33,928 nt of DNA from Bacteriovoracaceae bacterium (GTDB lineage: Bacteria; Bdellovibrionota; Bacteriovoracia; Bacteriovoracales; Bacteriovoracaceae), in NCBI GenBank assembly GCA_947461145.1, contig CANHJD010000011.1, forward strand, positions 1 through 33,928, written 5' to 3'. Positions 12,709-22,805 of this stretch are shown here, one piece after another. Below the pieces are notes generated by a model. The model was given only the letters and a program-made list of their open reading frames with translations. It ran no database searches and was not told where the DNA came from. Positions within the stretch are counted from its first letter, which is position 1. Every line of letters starts with the position of its first letter. Made by a program: the position numbers and the translations under genes.

Positions 12709-14325
12709 CTAAAGAAGAGATTTAAAAGGCGAGATTTTAAGCTTTAAAGAAGGGTCGCCAAACATGTGATACGTTTCACGGTAGTATTTCGATCTATTCT
12801 CACCTCCATACTGCCTCCACATCTCAGAGAGGGCGTAGTCGGTGATTTCGCCAAAATTTTCTTTCTTTTTAGTGAAAATTCCGTCAAACATGCGTTTTTC
12901 GAGGATATCATCTTCATCCCAGTAGCTTGAGTCCATTGACCCAAAAAACATAATTGCGCCATTTTCATGACGAATCCATGTTTCGGCAAATGACTCATCA
13001 ATGCGGAAGTCACCCGTGATACAGGCGTTAGAAATAACAAAAGGGAATGTATTGCTCTTTAGTGAACGAACTTCTTCTTGGCCGATATAAGGGCCGGCCC
13101 ATGAGTCTGTTGATCCATGACCCGAATAATTAATGATTGTTCGACCTTGGGATATTGCGTTCATAACTTCATTAGTCCAGGCCTTGTGGGAAATGGCATA
13201 AAGTTTGTCCCCTCCAAGCTGGTTAGCCTTAGGAAATACGCCTCTATACTTTGCCTTTTTCGTATAAGTATTGATGACGTAATTATGGGTTTCTTCAGCA
13301 ACTTCATAGCGATCATCCGTTGCGATGAATGAGATATGATCTAACATACTTTGAGTTGAGTAAGAGTCATTTAAGTAAATAATCATCTTGTTGAAGATTT
13401 TATTCATCTCGGCTTTATCTTTAGCAGTTACGCGACCAATAAAGAGTTCAGGCGTATTTAAGTCTTCTTCATATTCATTTCCCAAAGCGGCGTAATAAAG
13501 ATCTGTTGTCCCTGCGATGATGTTCGATTCTTTGCCGGGAACATCTTCAGAATCTCCTACGATAACTGCGTATTTTAAGCTTGGATTCTTTGCATAAAGA
13601 TCTTTGACCTTAGCTCTAATTTGTTCAGGATCATCTTTTTTCACTTCTAGAGTGAAAATATTAAAGCCGAGACTTTTCTTTAGATCCATATATTTGACAA
13701 GAGAAGGAGTTTCTTTAAATTTCGATCCAATAATGAAAACAATTCCTTCTTGTGCTTCCATTGGGATGAAATTTATTTTAGGCTTTTTGATTTTCACAGT
13801 GAATTGATTTTTCAAAATGGCCTTAGATCCTTCAAGGACTACTGGATAAAGTGTCACGAGGTATCTTTGCTGGCCTCTCATTGATCCGACATCTTCAATA
13901 GAAAATTCATCTTCTTTGAGTAATGTTTTACTGACAGTTAAATCAGATTCTTGATAAGTACTTCCCGGCAATTTTACTAAAGAAGGTAGGACGGGAAGAA
14001 TGTTCTGAATTGTTTTATTTATTTCGTTTTTATTTTCATTCGCAGAGATTTGAATATCGTTCATCTTGTCTGCATCTGCGTAAAAACGGAGTACGGGAAC
14101 TTGAGGAGCTCCTTGTACATATTGAATTGATTGCATTTCATCAACGCCAACTAGATTTAATTTTTGAAATTCCCGCCCATTAAGGACCACCATCTCAGTG
14201 TTAAGACCATCTACACTGATGTCATAAGTTATTCCATCTTCATTAGTGATTTTCGTAATTTTTGAAAATGCCGGCGCACTCAGTAGAGCGAGCCCCAAAA
14301 CTAGAGACAATTTTTTATTAGACAT
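12709..14325 (-). CDS. Gingipain-family (C25) cysteine protease, exported
   Basis: 538 residues from the ATG at 14325, which has a strong Shine-Dalgarno (GGGAGG); the earlier frame start at 14379 overlaps the promoter. The signal peptide is LSLVLGLALLSAPAFS. Residues ~20-190 resemble a gingipain propeptide (QSIQYVQGAPQVPVLRFYAD). The catalytic domain has the C25 dyad His403 (INYSGHGSTDSW) and Cys435 (FVISNACITGDF), plus YAVIVGDSEDVPG and LFIGRVTA blocks. C25 enzymes are secreted endopeptidases; specificity cannot be read from sequence. There is no C-terminal sorting domain, so the product is probably released or periplasmic. Confidence 0.9.
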   Translation of the reverse strand: MSNKKLSLVLGLALLSAPAFSKITKITNEDGITYDISVDGLNTEMVVLNGREFQKLNLVGVDEMQSIQYVQGAPQVPVLRFYADADKMNDIQISANENKNEINKTIQNILPVLPSLVKLPGSTYQESDLTVSKTLLKEDEFSIEDVGSMRGQQRYLVTLYPVVLEGSKAILKNQFTVKIKKPKINFIPMEAQEGIVFIIGSKFKETPSLVKYMDLKKSLGFNIFTLEVKKDDPEQIRAKVKDLYAKNPSLKYAVIVGDSEDVPGKESNIIAGTTDLYYAALGNEYEEDLNTPELFIGRVTAKDKAEMNKIFNKMIIYLNDSYSTQSMLDHISFIATDDRYEVAEETHNYVINTYTKKAKYRGVFPKANQLGGDKLYAISHKAWTNEVMNAISQGRTIINYSGHGSTDSWAGPYIGQEEVRSLKSNTFPFVISNACITGDFRIDESFAETWIRHENGAIMFFGSMDSSYWDEDDILEKRMFDGIFTKKKENFGEITDYALSEMWRQYGGENRSKYYRETYHMFGDPSLKLKISPFKSLL

Positions 14326-14365
14326 CCATGTCCTCCCATTAATTGAATCATCAAGAACCTTTTCT

Positions 14366-14371
14366 ATTATA
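14366..14371 (-). promoter_or_regulatory. -10 hexamer (TATAAT) of the C25 protease gene
   Basis: A perfect TATAAT lies 40 bases upstream of the ATG at 14325, giving a ~34-base leader with the GGGAGG ribosome site. No clear -35 is seen. Confidence 0.5.
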
Positions 14372-14426
14372 GGATCCAAATTGATATCTGTTGGGAGTGT
14401 AAGGAAATATGAGGGAGAGTTTGATT

Positions 14427-15361: not shown

Positions 15362-15389
15362 TTGTCTCGTCATCGCATTTGGATATAAT
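15362..15389 (+). promoter_or_regulatory. Promoter candidate for the PLOD-like gene
   Basis: TTGTCT (15362-15367), 16-base spacer, then perfect TATAAT (15384-15389). The start codon at 15400 is 11 bases downstream of the -10 and has no Shine-Dalgarno, consistent with a very short or absent leader. Confidence 0.45.
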
Positions 15390-15399
15390 TATTCATAAT

Positions 15400-16659
15400 A
15401 TGAAAACCATCGACGTCTGCCTTTTTATCTATAATAACAAATCTGATAACTGCCTGCGCTTTTTAGACGGCCTAAATTATCCTAAAGAGCTTCTTAATAT
15501 TATTATTTTTAGTGATCGTGAATTGAAACACAGCTACACCCATCTCATTGTTTCTGAGCGCGAAGCTTACAATTATATTACCTTCAATACATCCGGAGAT
15601 TACATCTGGACCATTTATGCAGATTACATTATTGATGAGCCTTCAATTCTTCAAGATTTAATAAAGCATAACAGAAGAGTCATTTCTGGACTCATGATAA
15701 AGCCTGATTCGAATTGGGCCAATTTTTGGGGAGCTATTTCTGAAAAGGGTTGGTATCAGCGTTCTGAGCACTATTTTGATATTTTGGATTTAAAGAAAAA
15801 AGGAAGCTTCAAAGTACCATTCATTACTGGAAATATTCTTTTCAAGAGGGAGGTCTTTAAGCGAAATGATCAAATCATAAGGCAGCATTCAGATTGGGAA
15901 CTCGATATGAACATCTGTTACAATTTGAGAAATGCTGGCGAGAATCTTTTTATTCTTAATGAAAAAGTTTATGGTCACATTGAGGAGACTGATATTTGGG
16001 TTGGAGTTAATGTTCTAGAGAACTGGACAGAAGAAGCTTACCTCCATCCTGATTTTATGGATTTCATGCATCAGTATAACCAAGACTGTGAAAAAGTAGA
16101 GACTAAGATTTTTAAACAGCTTGGGCCCGACATATGGCAAATTCCATTTTTTTCGACTGAGTTTTGTGATTATTTAGTCGGAGTGGCAGAGAAGAAAAAT
16201 CTTTGGTCGGCCGGAGCTTACTCAAGGCCCGACGAAGTTGACGGAAGAATAGGTACTTTTGAAAATTATCCCACCCAGGATGTGCATTTAAACCAACTGA
16301 ATTTACATCAATGGTGGCTTGAGACAGTGGTAAAGAAATATTTTAAAGCAATTATTCATCATCTCTATAAATATCATGCCAAAGGTTACAATATTGCCTT
16401 TATCGTCCGCTATAGTGAGAAAGGTCAAACGAAGTTAGACCCTCATCACGATGCCTCAAGCTATACTACAAACTTGGCCCTTAATACTTATGGTGTTGAC
16501 TACACGGGTGGTGGTTGTAATTTCGTTCACAAAAATATTCAAGTCGTTGGGAGTCCCAAAGGCTTCCTTACCCTGCACCCAGGCCGAATCACTCACTATC
16601 ATGAGGCAATTCCAATAACTTCAGGGACAAGGTATATTCTAGTCTCATTCAATGAATAA
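15400..16659 (+). CDS. Procollagen lysyl hydroxylase (PLOD)-like protein: glycosyltransferase-like domain plus 2-oxoglutarate/Fe(II) dioxygenase
   Basis: 419 residues from the ATG at 15400 (the frame opens at a TTG at 15379 that lies inside the promoter). The N-terminal ~230 residues match the accessory glycosyltransferase-like domain of animal PLODs: ANFWGAISEKGWYQRSEHYF corresponds to SNFWGALSPDxYYARSEDY, and DMNICYNLRNAGENLF to DMAFCANIR. The C-terminal domain matches the lysyl hydroxylase domain: FENYPTQDVHLNQ, PHHDASSYTTNLALN, DYTGGGCNFV, HPGRITHYHEAIP, GTRYILVSF. Iron ligands H349, D351 and H401 and 2OG-binding R411 are all present, with the same D-to-H and H-to-R spacing as I recall for human LH3 (50 and 10). 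Predicted to hydroxylate peptidyl lysine. No secretion signal is visible and no collagen-like substrate occurs in the window. Confidence 0.93.
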   Translation: MKTIDVCLFIYNNKSDNCLRFLDGLNYPKELLNIIIFSDRELKHSYTHLIVSEREAYNYITFNTSGDYIWTIYADYIIDEPSILQDLIKHNRRVISGLMIKPDSNWANFWGAISEKGWYQRSEHYFDILDLKKKGSFKVPFITGNILFKREVFKRNDQIIRQHSDWELDMNICYNLRNAGENLFILNEKVYGHIEETDIWVGVNVLENWTEEAYLHPDFMDFMHQYNQDCEKVETKIFKQLGPDIWQIPFFSTEFCDYLVGVAEKKNLWSAGAYSRPDEVDGRIGTFENYPTQDVHLNQLNLHQWWLETVVKKYFKAIIHHLYKYHAKGYNIAFIVRYSEKGQTKLDPHHDASSYTTNLALNTYGVDYTGGGCNFVHKNIQVVGSPKGFLTLHPGRITHYHEAIPITSGTRYILVSFNE

Positions 16660-16738: not shown

Positions 16739-17212
16739 ATGAAACAGACCATATTTTCACTTCTTTTATTTTTCACCACATATTCTTGGGCCCAGCTAAG
16801 AGGCGGTGGTGGTGAGAAAGATTTTAATGATCAGAATATGGAGACAATAAAAGTAGATGTTAAGAATATAGGCAAGATTTCAAAAGATCTTTTTAATCAA
16901 TGCTATAAACAAAAGGTGCAAATTAAGGGTTTAACAGATCTTTATGTTCATATGGCAAGCATTCAAAACCTACATCATTTAGAACATGGAAAAAGTTGGG
17001 ACATCTGTGACAAAGAATCAAAAAAAGTTAACTGGTCTTGCCTTAAAGGAAATGATCATTTTAAATTTTCGATAAAAAAAATCGTTGATTCGCCTGCCTA
17101 TTATGACTATCTCCGAAAGCATGAGCATGGTATAGATTCCTTGCAAGCAAAAGAAATCAAAGAATATTTTTATAAAGCCCTGGATTTAAAGAAACATGAA
17201 AACCGTCGCTAA
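16739..17212 (+). CDS. Exported poly-Gly/three-Cys protein, partner of the TPR-winged-helix gene (module A)
   Basis: 157 residues from the ATG at 16739 (Shine-Dalgarno AAAGG eight bases upstream); the frame is open from 16652 but the signal peptide KQTIFSLLLFFTTYSWA begins here. The mature protein starts QLRGGGG. It is paralogous to the product of 21559-22092: both have four Gly right after cleavage, three matching Cys (NQCYK, DICD, SCLKG against NNCYK, EDCLE, KCLFS) and a matching C-terminal block (IVDSPAYYDYL against IVNEPSMHDYL). No known family recognised. Its 3' end overlaps the next gene by 17 bases, so the two are probably translationally coupled and functionally linked. Confidence 0.8.
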   Translation: MKQTIFSLLLFFTTYSWAQLRGGGGEKDFNDQNMETIKVDVKNIGKISKDLFNQCYKQKVQIKGLTDLYVHMASIQNLHHLEHGKSWDICDKESKKVNWSCLKGNDHFKFSIKKIVDSPAYYDYLRKHEHGIDSLQAKEIKEYFYKALDLKKHENRR

Positions 17213-18380
17213 AACTTTTGCTACGGCACTTGAATGGTTCTACAAGGACATACGGAAGTTTAAGCGTTATTTAGACGATAAAAGAATAAATGCCGCAGAG
17301 AAGGCGATCTTGCAAAGTTGGCTCCATCTAAGGGATAACCAATTTATTGAAGCTCACTTTGAGCTTTCCAAGATTTCACAAACAAGTGATCACTTCGTAC
17401 TGGGTCAAAAGTATTTAATTGAAGGGATCATTTTTTTTAATCAAGGCGAATTACTTCAGGCCCTGCCACTCCTGAAGAAAGCCGATAAATTACTTTTTGA
17501 TAATTCATGTGAAAATCAAAAAATGGTCATTCTGAGTAACTTATTTAATTTGCATCTCAATTTAAACCATCCCAAAGAAATGAAAAATCTTATTTCAAAG
17601 ATGGAAGATCTTGATTGTTCTACCGTTGATGCCAGGATTCGTCGTTTGCGCTGTCAGTTTAATTATTTTAGCTTCTTTGAGCAGTTCGAGGTCGCCAGAT
17701 CGGTTCTACAGCAACTAAATTCACTAAAAAATTCCATGAATGAAAATCAAAGAATCTTTTTTCTCGTAGACCTCTTCGACTTTCAGGTTAAAGAAGGTCA
17801 TTTTAAGGAGGCCAAGAACACCTTAGAAGAGATGAAGAACTATAGAAAATTTCATCTGACTCAAAATTTTAATTATATGAAAGCGCTGATTAGTTTTCTA
17901 ACTGAGGATGAAAAATTTTATATTTATGAGCAAGATTTTGAAACTCATCAGTTTTTATTTTATCAATTGAAAGTAATTGAGGCACTTTCGCTCAAAGATC
18001 AGGATCAGGCCCAAGTATTTTGGATGAAACTTGCATCCCTTTTTCCGCAAACTTATTCCGAGGAGTTTTGTTATCAAGGTGATAAATGCCTTTTTTCTTT
18101 ATGCCTTGAGAAGTTAAAGATCCAAAGTGCAGGTAAAAAAAATCTTATAACTTTCAAAGATGATGGAACACTAGAGTGTAAAGTTATTCAAGAGCTTCAG
18201 AAAGAAAGTATTCTTAAGAAGGAAGATCTTTATTATTTGCTTTATGGTGAATTTCCTAAAGACAAAAATGACCTTGTAAAATTGGCGAAAGTAATCTCCC
18301 GCGCTCGTGAAAAATATGACCTTTTGATTAAGACCAACAAGGGATGCTACGAACTTGTTTATATGGCAAAAGCCAGTTAA
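17196..18380 (+). CDS. TPR-like protein with C-terminal OmpR-type winged helix (module A regulator)
   Basis: 394 residues, no signal peptide or membrane segment, so cytoplasmic. Residues ~1-310 are helical pairs resembling degenerate TPRs (LIEGIIFFNQGELLQALPLL, EGHFKEAKNTLEEM). The last ~75 residues (ILKKEDLYYLLYGEFP, LAKVISRAREKYDLLI, KTNKGCYELVY) fit the OmpR/PhoB winged-helix plan: helix pair, recognition helix, then a G-x-Y hairpin. It is paralogous to the 20366-21562 product throughout (KTFxxAL, LxDKRxxxAEKxILxxW, FYQLKVI/FHQLKVI, KGCY). AfsR/SARP and RRNPP regulators also join TPRs to an HTH, but with the HTH first. DNA binding and peptide or protein sensing are inferred. Confidence 0.75.
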   Translation: MKTVAKTFATALEWFYKDIRKFKRYLDDKRINAAEKAILQSWLHLRDNQFIEAHFELSKISQTSDHFVLGQKYLIEGIIFFNQGELLQALPLLKKADKLLFDNSCENQKMVILSNLFNLHLNLNHPKEMKNLISKMEDLDCSTVDARIRRLRCQFNYFSFFEQFEVARSVLQQLNSLKNSMNENQRIFFLVDLFDFQVKEGHFKEAKNTLEEMKNYRKFHLTQNFNYMKALISFLTEDEKFYIYEQDFETHQFLFYQLKVIEALSLKDQDQAQVFWMKLASLFPQTYSEEFCYQGDKCLFSLCLEKLKIQSAGKKNLITFKDDGTLECKVIQELQKESILKKEDLYYLLYGEFPKDKNDLVKLAKVISRAREKYDLLIKTNKGCYELVYMAKAS

Positions 18381-18485
18381 ACGTAAAATCAAACCCCTAG
18401 AGAGAAAGAGTTTTTGTCAGGTATTGAGTGTTTGACAGTTCTTCTCTTCACATTAGACCATAAGACATTAACATAGGAGTGTGTA

Positions 18486-19187
18486 ATGAAGATTTTCGTT
18501 TTGATTTCTCTTTTTTTATTGAGTCTTAATGTGTTCGCTCAGCAGGGTAAAGTATGTTGTAATCCAGGTGGACAAGTTGTTCCAGGTATTGTTCCGTGCC
18601 CAACTGCTAATAATCCTTTCAAGTGTTGTACGCCCTCAGGCCAAGCAGTTCCAAGTTTAACTAGTAATTTAAAGATATGCAAAGAAACTACAACTGGCGG
18701 TGGTTCTTCAGGTGCTACAAGTGGTGCATGCTGTATGGCCAAGCCAAATGCAAACCCGACTTACAACTGCGCTGATCCTATGCTTAACCTAGGGCATCCA
18801 CAGGGAGTATATTACGGTTATCAAAGATGTGTTCAGGTTAATATGGGAGCTTCATGTCAGTGGAATACAACAAATCCTAAATGTTGTGCTGCGGGTGTTC
18901 CAGGATGTTGCCCTGAAGGTTCTGCTACAGCAACTTATAACACTCTAGTTGCTGGTGGCTTTCTAACTGCTGCAGAAAACTGTAAGAAACAAATGGCCGC
19001 TGCTGGAGCTTCTGATCCAAGTACTTTCAAATGTTGTCTTGATGTAAGAAAAGATGTTCTTTCAGAAAAATGTAAAGCTTCTGGAGGAACTCCTGTTCAG
19101 GCCGCAAGCTGTTCTCACCCGACACCAACTTTGGTTTTTGGGCCTGTTTACTATAATAATACACCTTACATTTGCTGCAAGAAATAA
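18486..19187 (+). CDS. Cys-rich secreted protein with repeated Cys-Cys pairs
   Basis: 233 residues with a clear signal peptide (FVLISLFLLSLNVFA, cleavage before QQGK). The mature part has 22 Cys, mostly as CC pairs: VCCNPGG, KCCTPSG, ACCMAKP, KCCAAGVPGCCPEG, KCCLDVR and a terminal ICCKK. The first two units (CCNPGGQVVPGIVPC and CCTPSGQAVPSL) look like an internal duplication. Such density suggests a disulphide-bonded extracellular or periplasmic protein; I do not recognise the family. A strong Shine-Dalgarno (AGGAG, six bases before the ATG) and a bidirectional terminator suggest a well-expressed single gene. A TTGACA at 18432-18437 could be its -35, but no matching -10 is at normal spacing. 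Confidence 0.8.
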   Translation: MKIFVLISLFLLSLNVFAQQGKVCCNPGGQVVPGIVPCPTANNPFKCCTPSGQAVPSLTSNLKICKETTTGGGSSGATSGACCMAKPNANPTYNCADPMLNLGHPQGVYYGYQRCVQVNMGASCQWNTTNPKCCAAGVPGCCPEGSATATYNTLVAGGFLTAAENCKKQMAAAGASDPSTFKCCLDVRKDVLSEKCKASGGTPVQAASCSHPTPTLVFGPVYYNNTPYICCKK

Positions 19188-19203
19188 GATAAAATTGATT
19201 AAG

Positions 19204-19235
19204 GGCTAGCGACTTTTAGGTCGCTAGCCTTATTT
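19204..19235. terminator. Bidirectional terminator between convergent genes
   Basis: GGCTAGCGAC (19204-19213) pairs perfectly with GTCGCTAGCC (19220-19229) around TTTTAG, with T-rich flanks on both strands. It serves the Cys-rich gene (+) and the exported-protein pair (-). Confidence 0.85.
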
Positions 19236-19239
19236 AGAA

Positions 19240-19713
19240 TTAGATTGAAGACTGAGTCAGATCAACACGGATCTGTTCAGAAAGTTCAGGATTGGTCATG
19301 TTTAGAACTTCAAGCACTGGGCTTAGTTCCGCCTCAGAAAGAATAATCTCTTTAAAATTATTAGCATTAAATTCTACTAAGTTAGAATTTTTTGCTACAA
19401 GATTAGCAATCTCTTCCACTAAGTAAGAATCAAGCTCAGGATATTTCTGACTGATAATTGAAGTTAGCTCATCTGATTTCAATTGTTCATCAAGAACAAA
19501 AAGAGCGCCTGCTTTCCAATTTAAATCTTCAGATTGGATTCCCCAAAAAAATCCCGCAGAGGAAATTGCGAGTCCTACCAATGCTCCTGCAACACCAGCT
19601 GTTAATCCAACAATGATACCTGCTTCAGCTTTTTTTGATGTCGCAGTTGTTGCTGCTAACGTAATTGCACCGGCAAGAAAAAAACTTGTAAGTGATTTAT
19701 GTAGATTTTTCAT
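19240..19713 (-). CDS. Exported protein with AEAG-I/V-I junction, second of a tandem paralogous pair
   Basis: 157 residues from the ATG at 19713, preceded by GGAGAAAG; an in-frame ATG at 19728 overlaps the upstream stop (TAATG) but has no Shine-Dalgarno. The signal-like N-terminus ends KKAEAGIIVG and is followed by a Gly/Ala-rich hydrophobic segment (GVAGALVGLAISSAGFFWGI). The C-terminal ~90 residues are acidic and helical (LDEQLKSDELTSIISQKYPE, LSPVLEVLNMTNPELSEQIR). It aligns end to end with the product of 19728-20222. No known family recognised. The upstream paralogue and this gene form an operon. Confidence 0.75.
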   Translation of the reverse strand: MKNLHKSLTSFFLAGAITLAATTATSKKAEAGIIVGLTAGVAGALVGLAISSAGFFWGIQSEDLNWKAGALFVLDEQLKSDELTSIISQKYPELDSYLVEEIANLVAKNSNLVEFNANNFKEIILSEAELSPVLEVLNMTNPELSEQIRVDLTQSSI

Positions 19714-19727
19714 TTTATCTTTCTCCA

Positions 19728-20222
19728 TTAAAGTGTTTTTAGAGTTAAATCTTTTCTTAATTGTTCACCCAGCTTAGGGTTCGTGCTGGCCAGGATTTCA
19801 AGCACTGGTGCTAATTCATGCTCTGGAACAAGAATTTCTTTTATTCCATCTTTGTTGAATTCAACGGAATCTGAATTTTCAAGAACAAGTCTTGCAATCT
19901 CTTCAATCATAAATGAATCCAGCTCTGGATATCTTTGAGCAAGAATCGTTTGAATTTTATTAGGATCCATATTTTCATCAAGCATGAATAGGCCATAGGC
20001 ATACCAGCTCTTGTCACGGTGATCGATCGCCCAATAAATTGAAGCAACACTTGTTCCAAATCCACCAAACATGCCAATAACAGCGACTGCAACTGGAAGG
20101 GCAGCTACCGAAGCGGCAGTGGCTGCGATGATAACGCCAGCTTCAGCTTTTTTAGCTGGTATGCTGGCCGCACCGAGGGCAATTGAAAGTGCAATTACCG
20201 CACTCGTAAAAGATTTTTTCAT
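19728..20222 (-). CDS. Exported protein with AEAG-I/V-I junction, first of a tandem paralogous pair
   Basis: 164 residues. The ATG at 20222 has an excellent Shine-Dalgarno (TAGGAGGT, spacing about five). N-terminal signal to KKAEAGVIIA, then an Ala/Gly-rich hydrophobic stretch (AALPVAVAVIGMFGGFG). The C-terminal part shares LDExxxxxxxxxI(L/S)xQ(R/K)YPELDS, IEEIA.LV, VEFN..., SxVEFN and ELxPVLEIL with the downstream paralogue. Either a cleaved signal followed by one membrane helix, or a hydrophobic secreted protein. Function unknown. It sits inside the mirrored TPR-winged-helix locus. Confidence 0.78.
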   Translation of the reverse strand: MKKSFTSAVIALSIALGAASIPAKKAEAGVIIAATAASVAALPVAVAVIGMFGGFGTSVASIYWAIDHRDKSWYAYGLFMLDENMDPNKIQTILAQRYPELDSFMIEEIARLVLENSDSVEFNKDGIKEILVPEHELAPVLEILASTNPKLGEQLRKDLTLKTL

Positions 20223-20365
20223 TGAATACCTCCTAAATGGTAAACGTTTTTTAACGATAATATTTGGAGGGTGCTTCCAGCGGTAAAAAAAATACTCTTA
20301 ACTTCTTTTGGAATGATTTATCGAGTTAAGTCTGACTAAATTCGGATTTGGAGAAAAGTAAGTGG

Positions 20366-21562
20366 TTACGCTGACTTATCGTTTTTTAAAGATGATTTAA
20401 GGCTGTAGCAGCCCTTACGAAACGTTATTTCTAAGCACTTGTTCTTTCTTACATAGTAGATAAGATTCTTGAGTTTATCTTCATCGCTTTGATCCATCGG
20501 CTTTCTCCCCCAAAGGCACTCAAAAAGTTCTTCCTTTGGGATCGGGTATGAAGTTTTTTGCAGTAACATAATTATGGCCTCGGATTTATTTTTAGATAAA
20601 TCTGGAGTCACGTCAAAAGTTTGTTTTTGAACTTTATACTTTGAAAGGCAAAGTGAAAAAAGATTTACTTGTCCGTTATAGACAAAATTTTCTTGGTAAA
20701 TAACGGGATCTGTTTTTGAGAGAATATCCCAGTATTTCTCGGCTTCTTTGAAATTAGACTCCTCCAAAGATTTAATCACCTTAAGTTGATGAAAAAGTAA
20801 TTTTGAGTCTTTAAAGTCTTTCTCATAAAAGTATAGTGGCCCATTATGCATGAGATGATCTAATGAAAGTCTCATGAAAATAAAATTTGGACTGTGTCGA
20901 AAGAGGCGATACTTTTTCATCTCCTCCATTGTTTTCTCACAGTCATCAAATAAATTTTGCTTCAAAAAAAATTGAAATTTACTAATGAGATGAGACATGA
21001 TGACGGGGTCTGACATTGTTGATTTTTTAAATTCAAGTTCTTCTAAAAAAACTGAAGCCTTGTGGAATTCATTTTTAAAAGTTGAGTAATTAAATTTCGA
21101 CTGTAAATGACATATCGTTTGTCTATCATTTAGACCGGTGCTAGAAAGGACATCCATTAGGTTCAAAGCGTTGATCATGTCTTCTTCATTGCTTAAATTA
21201 TAACTTATGATAAACAGATTATAGACGCATATAAACTGATGTTCAGGTAGTGGATGTTTCTCAATAAGCTCGATTGCCTTATGAAGGTAGGAGGAGGCCT
21301 GATTTAATTCACCCATGTTGTTGTAGGTGAGACCCAAAATAAGAATTTTTTGAGATTCAACTAACTCACTTTCAACCACTAGAGTTCCAATATCCTCAAT
21401 AATCTGATTATGGAGGCAATTTTTTAATTGAAACCAGCCATTAAGTATTTTCTTTTCAGCGAGAGTAAGTCTCTTGTCATTTAGGAATGTTTTAGCTTTC
21501 TTAGGATTACTATGAACGAGCTTCAAAGCCTCAAGAAATGTTTTTGGCTTAAGTATGCTCAA
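20366..21562 (-). CDS. TPR-like protein with C-terminal OmpR-type winged helix (module B regulator)
   Basis: 398 residues from a TTG at 21562 that overlaps the upstream stop as TTGA. There is no ATG nearby, and alignment with the module A paralogue (KTFLEAL against KTFATAL, LNDKRLTLAEKKIL against LDDKRINAAEKAIL) supports this start. Residues ~1-310 are TPR-like helices (GLTYNNMGELNQASSYLHKA). The C-terminal ~75 residues show the winged-helix pattern more clearly than module A: PIPKEELFECLWGRKP, LKNLIYYVRKNKCLEITF, RKGCYSL, closely resembling the end of OmpR-type regulators (E.L...LWG, I..LRKKL, G.GYRL). No membrane segment. Likely a transcription regulator coupled to the exported protein encoded upstream; ligand and targets unknown. 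Confidence 0.8.
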   Translation of the reverse strand: MSILKPKTFLEALKLVHSNPKKAKTFLNDKRLTLAEKKILNGWFQLKNCLHNQIIEDIGTLVVESELVESQKILILGLTYNNMGELNQASSYLHKAIELIEKHPLPEHQFICVYNLFIISYNLSNEEDMINALNLMDVLSSTGLNDRQTICHLQSKFNYSTFKNEFHKASVFLEELEFKKSTMSDPVIMSHLISKFQFFLKQNLFDDCEKTMEEMKKYRLFRHSPNFIFMRLSLDHLMHNGPLYFYEKDFKDSKLLFHQLKVIKSLEESNFKEAEKYWDILSKTDPVIYQENFVYNGQVNLFSLCLSKYKVQKQTFDVTPDLSKNKSEAIIMLLQKTSYPIPKEELFECLWGRKPMDQSDEDKLKNLIYYVRKNKCLEITFRKGCYSLKSSLKNDKSA

Positions 21563-22092
21563 GGTTGTGGTACCGTAATAAAATTCTTAAAGAATTTAAT
21601 AAAGTCTTTTCTACTTTGTTCTTTCTCAATTTCCATACTCATGAGGTAGTCATGCATGCTTGGCTCATTTACGATGTTGTAAAGTTTGGAGTTATTTTCT
21701 AAATTGCTGAAAAGGCATTTAAATTTTTCATCTTCTAGGCAATCCTCTCCACCAGCTTGAATCATTTTATCTTTTGCTTTCTTCTTTAATTTTGGTGGCT
21801 TCATTTCACCTAATAAGGAGAGCTGAGTATAGACTTCGATAATATTTTCTGCCTTGAATTCCTCTTTATAACAGTTGTTCCAGTCTTTTTTCGCAAGTTT
21901 GACCCATTCTCCAAGAGCTTGCTCAATTTTTTTAATCCTCTGTGCTCTCACAAGCGAATTTTCACCATCTTCGCTTAGTTGCTTTTTATTATAATGACCA
22001 TCTGGTCCTCCACCGCCAGTATTAATGACTTGGGCATGAAGGGGTATTGTAATGATCAAGAAGATGGCGCTAAATATATTTGAAAACCTCAT
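21559..22092 (-). CDS. Exported poly-Gly/three-Cys protein, partner of the TPR-winged-helix gene (module B)
   Basis: 177 residues from the ATG at 22092 (GGAG five bases upstream; an in-frame GTG at 22098 has none). Signal peptide FSNIFSAIFLIITIPLHA, mature start QVINTGGGGPDG. It shares with module A the poly-Gly motif, three Cys positions, W.NCYK and the C-terminal IVxxPxxxDYL block. It is longer in the middle, with a basic KPPKLKKKAKDK segment. The stop overlaps the TTG start of the regulator gene (TTGA), so translation is probably coupled. No known family recognised. Confidence 0.78.
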   Translation of the reverse strand: MRFSNIFSAIFLIITIPLHAQVINTGGGGPDGHYNKKQLSEDGENSLVRAQRIKKIEQALGEWVKLAKKDWNNCYKEEFKAENIIEVYTQLSLLGEMKPPKLKKKAKDKMIQAGGEDCLEDEKFKCLFSNLENNSKLYNIVNEPSMHDYLMSMEIEKEQSRKDFIKFFKNFITVPQP

Positions 22093-22187: not shown

Positions 22188-22805
22188 CTATTTTTTCCAT
22201 AAATAGAGGCGTGGTCTGCCTTCAATAGCGAATTTTATGTTTTTTAGATTTTTTTCAAAGATATCTAAGGTTTCCTTCTTCACACTATGGAAGACAATTC
22301 TTGAAGCAAGCCCACTTCTGGGTGGGAGTTGAGTTTGAAAGGTCATTTCAGTCGTTTGCGGATCAATTTTTCGGTACTGCTGGCGAACAAATACGTATTT
22401 ATCCTTTAGTAACCTATTTCTTTCAAAGCCTTGGAAATTAAAGGTCACTATTTGCCTAAATTTTAGGGGGATTGCTTCTAAAGTCATTTCATCCCAACGA
22501 GCTCCCTCTTCATTGGCCATTCTAAAACAGCGACGGAGTGAGCCCTTTTTGCCATCCTCAATCCCGGGAAGTGGGGATATATGATCAAAATAAACTGACC
22601 AATCCGAGGCCCTGGTACTGTCACTAGCGTACTCCCATACCTCTTCGATAGGTGCATTAATAATAACAGAGGCGTGAACTGCCTTATTCCAATTTACTTC
22701 CTTCGATTCCATCATGAGTACATCTATTTTTGGCAATGAGCCTGCTCGCCCAAAAAGGGAGATCAGAAAACAAAATGCTAAAACGAGGATACGAATATTC
22801 ACCAT
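22188..22805 (-). CDS. Exported SRPBCC/START-like domain protein
   Basis: 205 residues. An N-terminal hydrophobic segment (ILVLAFCFLISLFGRAGS) is a signal peptide or anchor. The rest has the polyketide-cyclase/SRPBCC pattern: VIINAPIEEVWEYASDSTRA SDWS at ~50-70 and a long C-terminal amphipathic helix (KKETLDIFEKNLKNIKFAIE). SRPBCC folds form a hydrophobic pocket that binds lipids or other small hydrophobic ligands; in the periplasm this could be lipid handling (inference). There is no Shine-Dalgarno, and a TAAAAT lies 7 bases before the ATG. It points the same way as oxyR just upstream (50-base gap). Confidence 0.75.
   Translation of the reverse strand: MVNIRILVLAFCFLISLFGRAGSLPKIDVLMMESKEVNWNKAVHASVIINAPIEEVWEYASDSTRASDWSVYFDHISPLPGIEDGKKGSLRRCFRMANEEGARWDEMTLEAIPLKFRQIVTFNFQGFERNRLLKDKYVFVRQQYRKIDPQTTEMTFQTQLPPRSGLASRIVFHSVKKETLDIFEKNLKNIKFAIEGRPRLYLWKK

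Follow-up and report, generated by a model that had tools for sequence, protein, structure and literature searches.

A two-gene cassette for an exported protein and a TPR protein with a predicted winged helix in Bdellovibrionota: a candidate peptide signalling system

Results

The window, by which is meant the entire 33,928-nucleotide stretch of Bacteriovoracaceae DNA that was analyzed, contains two cassettes separated by three genes for exported proteins. In module A, located on the plus strand, the first gene encodes the A-partner, a small exported protein of 157 residues counted from its ATG (16739-17212). The reading frame is open already from 16652, ahead of the ATG at 16739. Following the signal peptide is Q-LRGGGGEKDF, and this Gly-rich segment, QLRGGGGEKDF (16793-16825, plus strand), would form the N-terminus of the mature protein if cleavage occurs at the predicted site. 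The second gene (17196-18380, plus strand) specifies the A-receptor, a TPR protein of 394 residues; its first 17 nucleotides (17196-17212) are shared with the end of the A-partner gene. Module B lies on the minus strand. It consists of the B-partner, a small exported protein of 177 residues (21559-22092), and the B-receptor, a TPR protein of 398 residues with a TTG start and, as judged from sequence and model, a predicted C-terminal winged helix (20366-21562); the overlap of stop and start is here 4 nucleotides. The Gly-rich segment of the B-partner, QVINTGGGGPDG (21997-22032, minus strand), is again the putative mature N-terminus and a candidate for the signal, or for a peptide used in recognition. 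Both modules hold up as cassettes of two overlapping genes, one for an exported protein and one for a TPR protein with a predicted winged helix at its C-terminus.

Positioned between them, and co-directional with module A, is the gene for a 22-Cys exported protein (18486-19187, plus strand), which is a possible cargo and whose predicted mature part starts with QQGKVCCNPGG. The remaining two genes form a tandem pair on the minus strand, 19728-20222 being the first and 19240-19713, likewise a possible cargo, the second. Their exported products are 45% identical to each other and belong by sequence comparison to a family that we have named 'EAGII'. Given that this pair and module B share the minus-strand direction, 'mirror image' is a less telling description of the locus.

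The earlier note, which was made from the DNA letters alone, had placed all of these genes and both overlaps correctly. It had also regarded the cassettes as paralogous gene by gene. Indeed, the two receptors are identical at 34% of 392 aligned columns (E 2e-60 in a comparison of the two sequences) and contain the proposed motifs KTFxxAL, LxDKRxxxAEKxILxxW, and KGCY. The two partners by themselves are 22% identical (E 1e-5) and are joined by an alignment of 27 partners; the IVxxPxxxDYL block and three cysteines per mature partner are present, as are the 22 cysteines of the central protein. The description of a 'two-copy' system had to be abandoned, the source genome having five receptors of the window type. 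Up to eight receptor matches occur in the genome of a relative. Within the genus the cassette is distributed unevenly, being present in 10 of 26 genomes, and a search of the phylum with receptor profiles located receptors in Bacteriovorax-type genomes and in other families of the Bdellovibrionota.

An exported partner is encoded directly upstream of all 44 full-length window-type receptors examined, in keeping with the prediction that the pairing would be conserved. Dropped before counting were L019, L021, L137, and L138, which are receptor fragments cut off at contig ends with no upstream DNA, and L014 and L030, which are single-query matches to TPR proteins of ∼650 residues without the family features. 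L139 is a receptor remnant of 65 residues without a partner. Inspection by eye places a Gln at the +1 position of the predicted mature N-terminus in 48 of 48 partners, and a script found GG or GxG within 18 residues of that N-terminus in 41 of 47. By an automatic rule the combination of Gln +1 and the Gly motif was recovered in 11 of 371 other exported reading frames, nine of which proved to be partners not previously listed. The combination is kept in small partners that are only 13-22% identical to the A-partner. In the model of the B-partner the Gly-rich N-terminus is of low confidence and is followed by a helical domain with the three cysteines. No relative of the small partner was found among solved structures (best E 0.52). 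The distances between receptors correlate with those between the C-domains of their partners (r 0.66, n 24). Covariation of peptide and receptor is weak, with a Mantel r of 0.26 (P 0.0015) and, once the C-domain of the partner is controlled for, a partial r of 0.16 (P 0.024), the peptide of L023 having been misplaced in the script behind both values.

The AlphaFold model of the B-receptor (pLDDT 86.7) shows a TPR superhelix, with helical repeats beginning at residue 7, and a winged helix at the C-terminus, so that the HTH fold anticipated in the earlier note is present in the predicted structure. The predicted winged-helix part, residues 326-388 (20399-20587, minus strand), is formed by three α-helices (326-336, 343-351, and 358-375) and a β-hairpin wing (379-382 and 385-388). 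The sequence support for it is marginal: Trans_reg_C was matched at E ≤ 0.1 in 8 of 29 C-terminal domains, with a best value of 0.0012, and the first family member (E 0.0014) scored 19.1 bits against the PF00486 cut-off of 26.2. A sequence search of the Protein Data Bank with the winged helix gave a best E of 0.035, and the OmpR-type protein encoded in the window yielded no alignment with it. No BTAD family appeared in the Pfam results for the receptors. Identity of the TPR protein as a chaperone or an HrpB1-like protein was rejected, the Pfam matches being below threshold.

A Foldseek search with the B-receptor model matched Rap proteins (E 1.5e-3 to 2.3e-3, TM 0.46-0.51), two of which, 4gyo and 4i9c, hold a bound peptide; kinesin light chain and LGN ranked above them. 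The receptor profile of a more distant class matched NprR (1.5e-4) and RapH (1.8e-4), with PPR proteins and kinesin light chain ranking above NprR, and neither Rap nor NprR is among the matches listed for the window-type profile. The TPR matches of the receptors are generic.

In this distant class, 31 of 37 receptors across the Bdellovibrionota are adjoined by a co-directional exported protein at a spacing of -67 to +113 nucleotides. These partners are mostly 500-800 residues long and often trypsin-like; the exported partners overall extend from 144 to 804 residues. Pfam assigned a trypsin-like domain to 9 of the 16 large partners scanned; a scan for the His and Ser motif found none in several. 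Tandem repeats of 6-9 residues, identical at the peptide level, occur in 17 of 27 large partners, examples being GGNGPTNT (four copies), GDKKQGDG (ten), and GGGGDGPDT (six). The other ten have no array by the cut-off employed, with L062 barely below it. Among 230 other reading frames of at least 300 residues nearby, repeats of the same kind were observed in three, all in receptor loci: an adjacent partner in L058, a divergent neighbor in L121, and a protein ∼2 kb from the receptor in L127. An apparent fusion of precursor and receptor in L058 was dismissed as an assembly-gap artifact; another frame ends there in an overlapping GTGA.

The repeats are mostly Gly-rich and lie mid-protein between two regions, a linker-like place; in proteins with a trypsin-like region they follow it. 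Their sequence differs between species, yet within a gene it is identical despite many synonymous changes in the DNA. Between neighboring copies in 16 arrays, 178 codons differ synonymously and 19 non-synonymously (crude pN/pS 0.12), the ratios being 35:0 in L132, 15:0 in L059, and 14:0 in L131. The units GELADD, GDSDLTLP, GDKKQGDG, and GDGIIAGG are exact or nearly so while the codons drift. RTX calcium repeats were considered and rejected, since the periods are 6-9 and, by our reading, no position is consistently hydrophobic, in contrast to the RTX motif. The partners in the window have no repeat array and only one Gly-rich motif, which we infer to be the equivalent of the distant-type repeats.

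The earlier note had further proposed that the regulators control local exoproteins. A search for an operator motif shared upstream of cassettes and cargo, conducted with four groups of regions at three widths, gave none above the best of 40 shuffles and one tie, and the EAGII family (19240-20222) is tied to the cassettes by gene linkage only. The cassette-linked genes also include one for an exported protein of ∼400 residues that, by eye, resembles clan CD peptidases in its His/Cys pattern. The genome encodes four OppA-type (SBP_bac_5) binding proteins, possible candidates for peptide uptake.

Discussion

SARP/BTAD and HilA-type regulators combine an N-terminal OmpR-type winged helix with TPR-like helices and are not known to have an obligatory exported partner. 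The B-receptor model shares with them a predicted OmpR-type winged helix joined to TPR-like helices, whereas the domain order is reversed relative to the SARP/BTAD proteins, in which the winged helix precedes the BTAD. Fungal α-factor precursors are exported and carry tandem identical peptide copies that vary between species, as do the repeat-bearing partners; they differ in being eukaryotic, in acting through a cell-surface receptor, and in having no known co-encoded regulator.

The RRNPPA systems (Rap-Phr, NprR, PlcR-PapR, PrgX, Rgg, and AimR) are described as quorum sensing systems of the Bacillota in which the gene for a Sec-exported precursor adjoins that for a cytoplasmic TPR receptor of 250-500 residues, many with a DNA-binding domain (PMC9765709, PMC11343458, PMC10075063). 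The propeptides may hold multiple identical copies of the peptide, up to six (PMC9765709), or one to four repetitions (PMC11343458), and the detector of a large survey was applied to Firmicutes and viruses (PMC10075063). The cassettes described here are similar in having a TPR receptor of about 250-500 residues and an adjacent gene for an exported protein, here a putative propeptide; many of the distant-type partners, like some RRNPPA precursors, contain several identical peptide copies. In contrast to the N-terminal HTH of the DNA-binding RRNPPA members, the predicted winged helix is C-terminal. The RRNPPA propeptide is short with little else, whereas the partners contain 144-804 residues, the model of the B-partner includes a helical domain and 9 of the 16 large partners scanned have a trypsin-like match, and the cassettes occur in Gram-negative Bdellovibrionota rather than Bacillota. 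The homology found extends no further than TPR-type similarity. With a predicted DNA-binding domain at the opposite terminus and a precursor of considerable size, these proteins are not members of the RRNPPA family. The likeness to RRNPP systems drawn in the earlier note accordingly stands for the layout and fails for domain order and precursor size, and its suggestion that the partner or its fragments are sensed gains support from the tandem repeats of distant partners.

We favor, with a probability of roughly 0.45, the view that each module is a peptide-signalling pair working like the RRNPPA systems. The first gene would provide an exported precursor, its N-terminus resembling a signal peptide, with a Gly-rich peptide that in the window type is present once, where the mature protein begins, and in many distant-type partners as tandem identical copies. 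The released peptide would return to the cytoplasm and bind the receptor encoded beside it, within the TPR superhelix; the winged helix at the receptor's C-terminus might then alter expression of the cassette and of neighboring genes for exported proteins, the 19240-20222 pair for example.

Extended segments are common ligands of TPR domains, and the TPR protein could instead bind the unexported partner in the cytoplasm through its unstructured Gly-rich segment, sensing a backlog of secretion in the manner of a chaperone. Once the partner is exported, the winged-helix protein would be released and could regulate the cassette, with neither peptide release nor import being needed. The overlapping genes, the close pairing, and the location of the Gly-rich segment right after the signal peptide in small partners, with the low model confidence of disordered segments, suit this scheme, as does the correlation of receptor and C-domain distances, which is expected of any co-inherited pair. 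By itself it explains neither the exact peptide copies with synonymous drift nor the trypsin-like domains of the distant partners, and we regard it as rather improbable. Somewhat better placed, if still unlikely, is an ordinary dedicated regulator that answers to some unrelated signal and controls the secreted protein encoded next to it, the Gly-rich repeats being flexible linkers. Secreted enzymes often have local regulators, and the mid-protein position of the repeats is as expected of linkers. Linkers need not keep each residue, yet the units are preserved while their codons drift, and the Gln and Gly motif persists in highly divergent small partners.

The linked EAGII pair and the clan CD-like protein would befit a conflict or predation module of proteases and other exported cargo, with the TPR protein sensing a foreign molecule. 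This we consider very improbable. PADLOC gave no match for seven of eight receptors and a weak one for the other (L062, SduA, E 0.019); of two partners, one had none and L050 matched RT-Protease_XI (E 3e-6), which we attribute to the trypsin fold. No relative of P0003 was found in phages or plasmids, viral contigs contained none related to the A4 alignment, and a mobile-element origin was rejected.

Returning to peptide signalling, we suggest, a shade more tentatively than for the modules themselves, that the Bdellovibrionota may have a peptide-pheromone system of their own. Its precursor would be exported, would contain identical signal peptides in tandem, and would often be fused to a trypsin-like domain, perhaps for its processing; the receptor, encoded alongside, would be a cytoplasmic TPR protein ending in a winged helix. 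The small precursors of Bacteriovorax, with a single Gly-rich peptide at the N-terminus, would be a reduced form, and the system would there have multiplied into parallel channels, five in the present genome. No such system in Bdellovibrionota is among the matches listed in the literature searched, which lay mostly outside subscription journals. What has been found in these relatives of the predator Bdellovibrio has the look of a Gram-negative peptide signalling system not described before. If this is true, the predators possess a peptide language that is able to evolve, in some genomes with several private channels. Their coordination would be directly testable, since candidate signal peptides can be read off the repeats and synthesized.

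Results

The reading frames of both modules and of the genes between them lie where the earlier note placed them. Module A, on the forward strand, encodes an exported protein, the A-partner (16739-17212), and a TPR protein, the A-receptor (17196-18380). Module B, on the reverse strand, encodes the B-partner (21559-22092, exported) and the B-receptor (20366-21562, TTG start, TPR protein). The partner and receptor genes indeed overlap, by 17 nt in A and 4 nt in B, and the proposed paralogy is borne out for both the receptors (34% identical, E 2e-60) and the partners (22% identical, E 1e-5). Positioned between the modules are the genes for a 22-Cys exported protein (18486-19187, +) and for two exported proteins (19240-19713 and 19728-20222, both -) that are 45% identical to each other and belong to a family referred to here as EAGII. 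Module A is preceded by a gene (15379-16659, +) that stops 79 nt ahead of the A-partner start; its product shows strong similarity to the procollagen lysine hydroxylase/glycosyltransferase LH3 (phmmer E 8.5e-61) and would be a collagen-modifying-type enzyme in a bacterium. Directly beyond module B is an exported-looking protein (22188-22805, -) with a Polyketide_cyc2 match slightly short of the cut-off (E 8e-6).

Pfam matches of the receptors are to TPRs, all weak, and the C-terminus of the B-receptor weakly matches Trans_reg_C (E 0.018). The model of the B-receptor, based on 7 sequences with a mean pLDDT of 86.7, displays a TPR-like superhelix with three helices and a β-hairpin C-terminal to it. 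This C-terminal part is predicted to be a winged helix, and the HTH-type fold expected of a regulator is accordingly present in the model. Among the best 50 Foldseek matches listed, kinesin light chain, PCI proteins, and LGN rank highest, and Rap proteins appear from rank 28 onward (E 1.5e-3 to 2.8e-3). The profile of receptors like those in the window (window type, with small partners) matched designed TPRs, LGN, and others, with Rap and NprR absent. That of the distant type, namely remote Bdellovibrionota homologues with mostly large partners, matched NprR (1.5e-4), RapH (1.8e-4), and 5dbk, a "Transcriptional regulator/TPR domain protein" (2.2e-5), all outranked by PPR and kinesin-light-chain sequences. 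For the C-terminal domain profile, the best PDB sequence was the ToxR DNA-binding domain (0.035), followed by TcpP, CssR, and SaeR at 0.6-0.8 amid unrelated chains. The B-partner model (8 sequences, pLDDT 74) consists of a Gly-rich N-terminus of low confidence and a helical bundle, for which a PDB search revealed no relatives.

The arrangement had been described as a two-copy system, but the organism's own genome (2.65 Mb, 212 contigs, 86% complete) carries five receptors, of which two lie in the window, two on contig C62, and one on contig C50. A second query recovered the same five. The receptor profile A1 matched 41 of 368 Bdellovibrionota genomes at E ≤ 1e-5, including 10 of the 26 from the same genus; the lowest-ranking matches among the 41 are short and partial, possibly non-members, and copies are undercounted because scoring was limited to five candidates per genome. 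Profile A5, representing the distant members, matched 69 of 356 genomes at E ≤ 1e-8, window-type genomes among them, and the two profiles are homologous across 364 columns (hhalign E 1.2e-34). Named relatives are four loci from MAGs labelled Bacteriovorax stolpii and one from a MAG labelled Halobacteriovorax. Searches of viral contigs, phages, and plasmids gave no matches.

Co-occurrence of the pair across Bdellovibrionota was confirmed for the window type: all 44 full-length receptors examined (24 + 19 + 1) are immediately preceded by a same-strand exported gene. The overlap is kept in part, with measured gaps ranging from -20 to +22 nt, such that some are positive. Three incomplete receptors also follow a partner (the broken L022, and L028 and L067, which are truncated at contig ends), and a 65-aa remnant (L139:1553-1747, +) has no recognized partner. 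Fragments without upstream DNA (L019, L021, L137, L138) were left out of the count, and L014 and L030 were dropped as unrelated hits. These totals include the last four places added, which comprised one full-length receptor with its partner, two fragments without upstream DNA, and one partnerless remnant, and which did not shift the weight given to the readings. At one locus (L007:491-1486 / L071:6991-7986) two partner genes lie in tandem ahead of one receptor, and their products differ in the mature N-terminus (QVKTGGGSSA versus QIKTGGGPDM). At L070:8009-8775 / L022 a truncated receptor frame adjoins an intact partner, representing a decayed cassette.

The first residue past the inferred signal-peptidase site, read by eye, is Gln in 48 of 48 window-type partners, a count that is partly circular in that the site was set before Gln. 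Scripted placement gave 41 of 47, the lower number arising from several cleavage sites that the script misplaced. It scored GG or GxG among the next 18 residues for 41 of the 47 partners, and 38 of 47 contain exactly three cysteines. As a control, 371 other exported ORFs of the loci were scored with automatically placed cleavage sites and a slightly tighter Gly criterion: 26 have Gln at +1, 38 the Gly motif, and 11 both; nine of these 11 are partners not listed before, and the remaining two are the 22-Cys protein of the window and a 596-aa protein.

For the distant type, 37 loci were examined (1 + 16 + 20), with further, mostly weaker, A5 matches outside the count. A co-directional exported partner is found in 31: 29 with measured gaps, L056 (cut by a contig end), and L058. 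This number includes a weak case (L123), two short partners (L122, L126), and one start misplaced by the script (L066). Of the 29, 21 share 1-67 nt between partner and receptor frames, with start codons chosen by the analyst, and the largest gaps are 48, 63, and 113 nt. Whether the partner lies upstream or downstream of the receptor varies with the lineage. In L121 the large neighbor is divergent, in L127 a candidate lies ∼2 kb off on the opposite strand, and near the receptors of L064, L065, L128, and L130 no partner was recognized. Nine of 16 large partners scanned (L050-L055, L062, L063, L114) match Trypsin or Trypsin_2 of Pfam at E ≤ 0.1, although the family cut-off is exceeded in just two cases, L052 (Trypsin) and L062 (Trypsin_2); the other seven (L059, L060, L061, L066, L116, L124, L129) gave no such match. 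A motif scan located TNAHC in the partners of L050-L054 and detected no His or Ser motif in those of L055, L057, and L059.

Large distant-type partners contain mid-protein arrays of exact short peptides, including GGNGPTNT (x4), GDSDLTLP (x3), PGNTSIP (x6), GSGSGGDG (x3), GGPDSAGS (x4), GNGSSGDG (x3), GDGIIAGG (x5), GDKKQGDG (x10), GELADD (x4), GGGGDGPDT (x6), and others. With a lenient detector, arrays were found in 17 of 27 large partners versus three of 230 other ORFs of at least 300 aa. These three are the L058 partner, which adjoins its receptor next to an assembly gap, the divergent neighbor in L121, and the candidate in L127, the partner status of the latter two leaning partly on the repeats themselves. 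The detector found no array in L051, L053, L060, L062, L063, L115, L118, L120, L123, and L129; the L062 partner has two exact copies (score 9 against a cut of 10), and those of L115, L118, and L120 each carry a single related segment, GG(G)[DE]YGE[GS]G. Between adjacent copies in 16 arrays there are 178 synonymous and 19 non-synonymous codon differences, excluding L117, an N-run artefact that is still within the summed crude pN/pS of 0.12. The detector's identity requirement also limits non-synonymous change, yet single genes with ratios of 35:0, 15:0, 14:0, and 13:0 argue for selection acting on each peptide copy.

The EAGII family is small, occurring in 11 of 356 genomes. Strong hits (E < 1e-40) occur in seven genomes, each of which carries window-type receptors. 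For six of the eight strong clusters the nearest receptor is no more than 3 kb away, and for one (genome G006) it is ∼6 kb away; the eighth, on contig C4 of the own genome, has no receptor on its contig. Weaker hits lie beside a receptor and on a separate contig (G313), on a contig that lacks a receptor hit (G312), and in two genomes that have none at all (G308, G329). The pair is upstream of the cassette in f12 genomes and downstream in Bacteriovorax. This occurrence and linkage support the EAGII pair as cargo or partner of the cassette; its regulation by the cassette would be a separate, hypothetical step. A search for an operator common to the upstream regions of cassettes and cargo found none.

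Ahead of EAGII genes at three loci (L068:9309-10556, L070:9725-10936, and L133:8522-9730, -) is a ∼400-aa exported protein whose HSDE...SCH pattern is conserved and looks, by eye, like the dyad of clan CD peptidases; Pfam gave no trusted hit. On contig C4 it belongs to an operon-like run (L133:4847-9730) that also encodes three EAGII proteins and an exported-looking protein of 700 aa, and receptor queries gave no hit on that contig. Peptidase_C25 peptidases are part of type IX secretion in Bacteroidota. A Peptidase_C25 (gingipain-type) domain is encoded in the window at 12709-14379 (-; E 3.8e-53), and Por_Secre_tail, a secretion system C-terminal sorting domain, occurs in exported proteins adjoining receptor cassettes (L070:8880-9728, +, E 3e-10; L005:584-1480, +, E 2e-4, short of the cut-off). 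Together these proteins hint at type IX-like secretion in Bacteriovorax.

Discussion

The pair is not classed as RRNPPA, given that its predicted DNA-binding domain is at the opposite end and of a different type, and that its precursor is a large protein. Among the literature matches listed, none concerned such exported-protein/receptor pairs in Bdellovibrionota. RRNPPA propeptides can hold tandem identical peptide copies, up to six (PMC9765709), and a second paper provides further precedent (PMC11343458). The weakest link in the argument is that the repeats of the distant partners may correspond to the single Gly-rich N-terminus of those in the window.

The best-supported reading is that each module is a peptide-signalling pair functioning like RRNPPA systems. 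The precursor, bearing Gly-rich peptides, would be exported, the TPR protein would serve as receptor of the peptide, and the winged helix would be its output. The own genome encodes four OppA-type proteins, and thus a route of peptide import via such proteins is possible.
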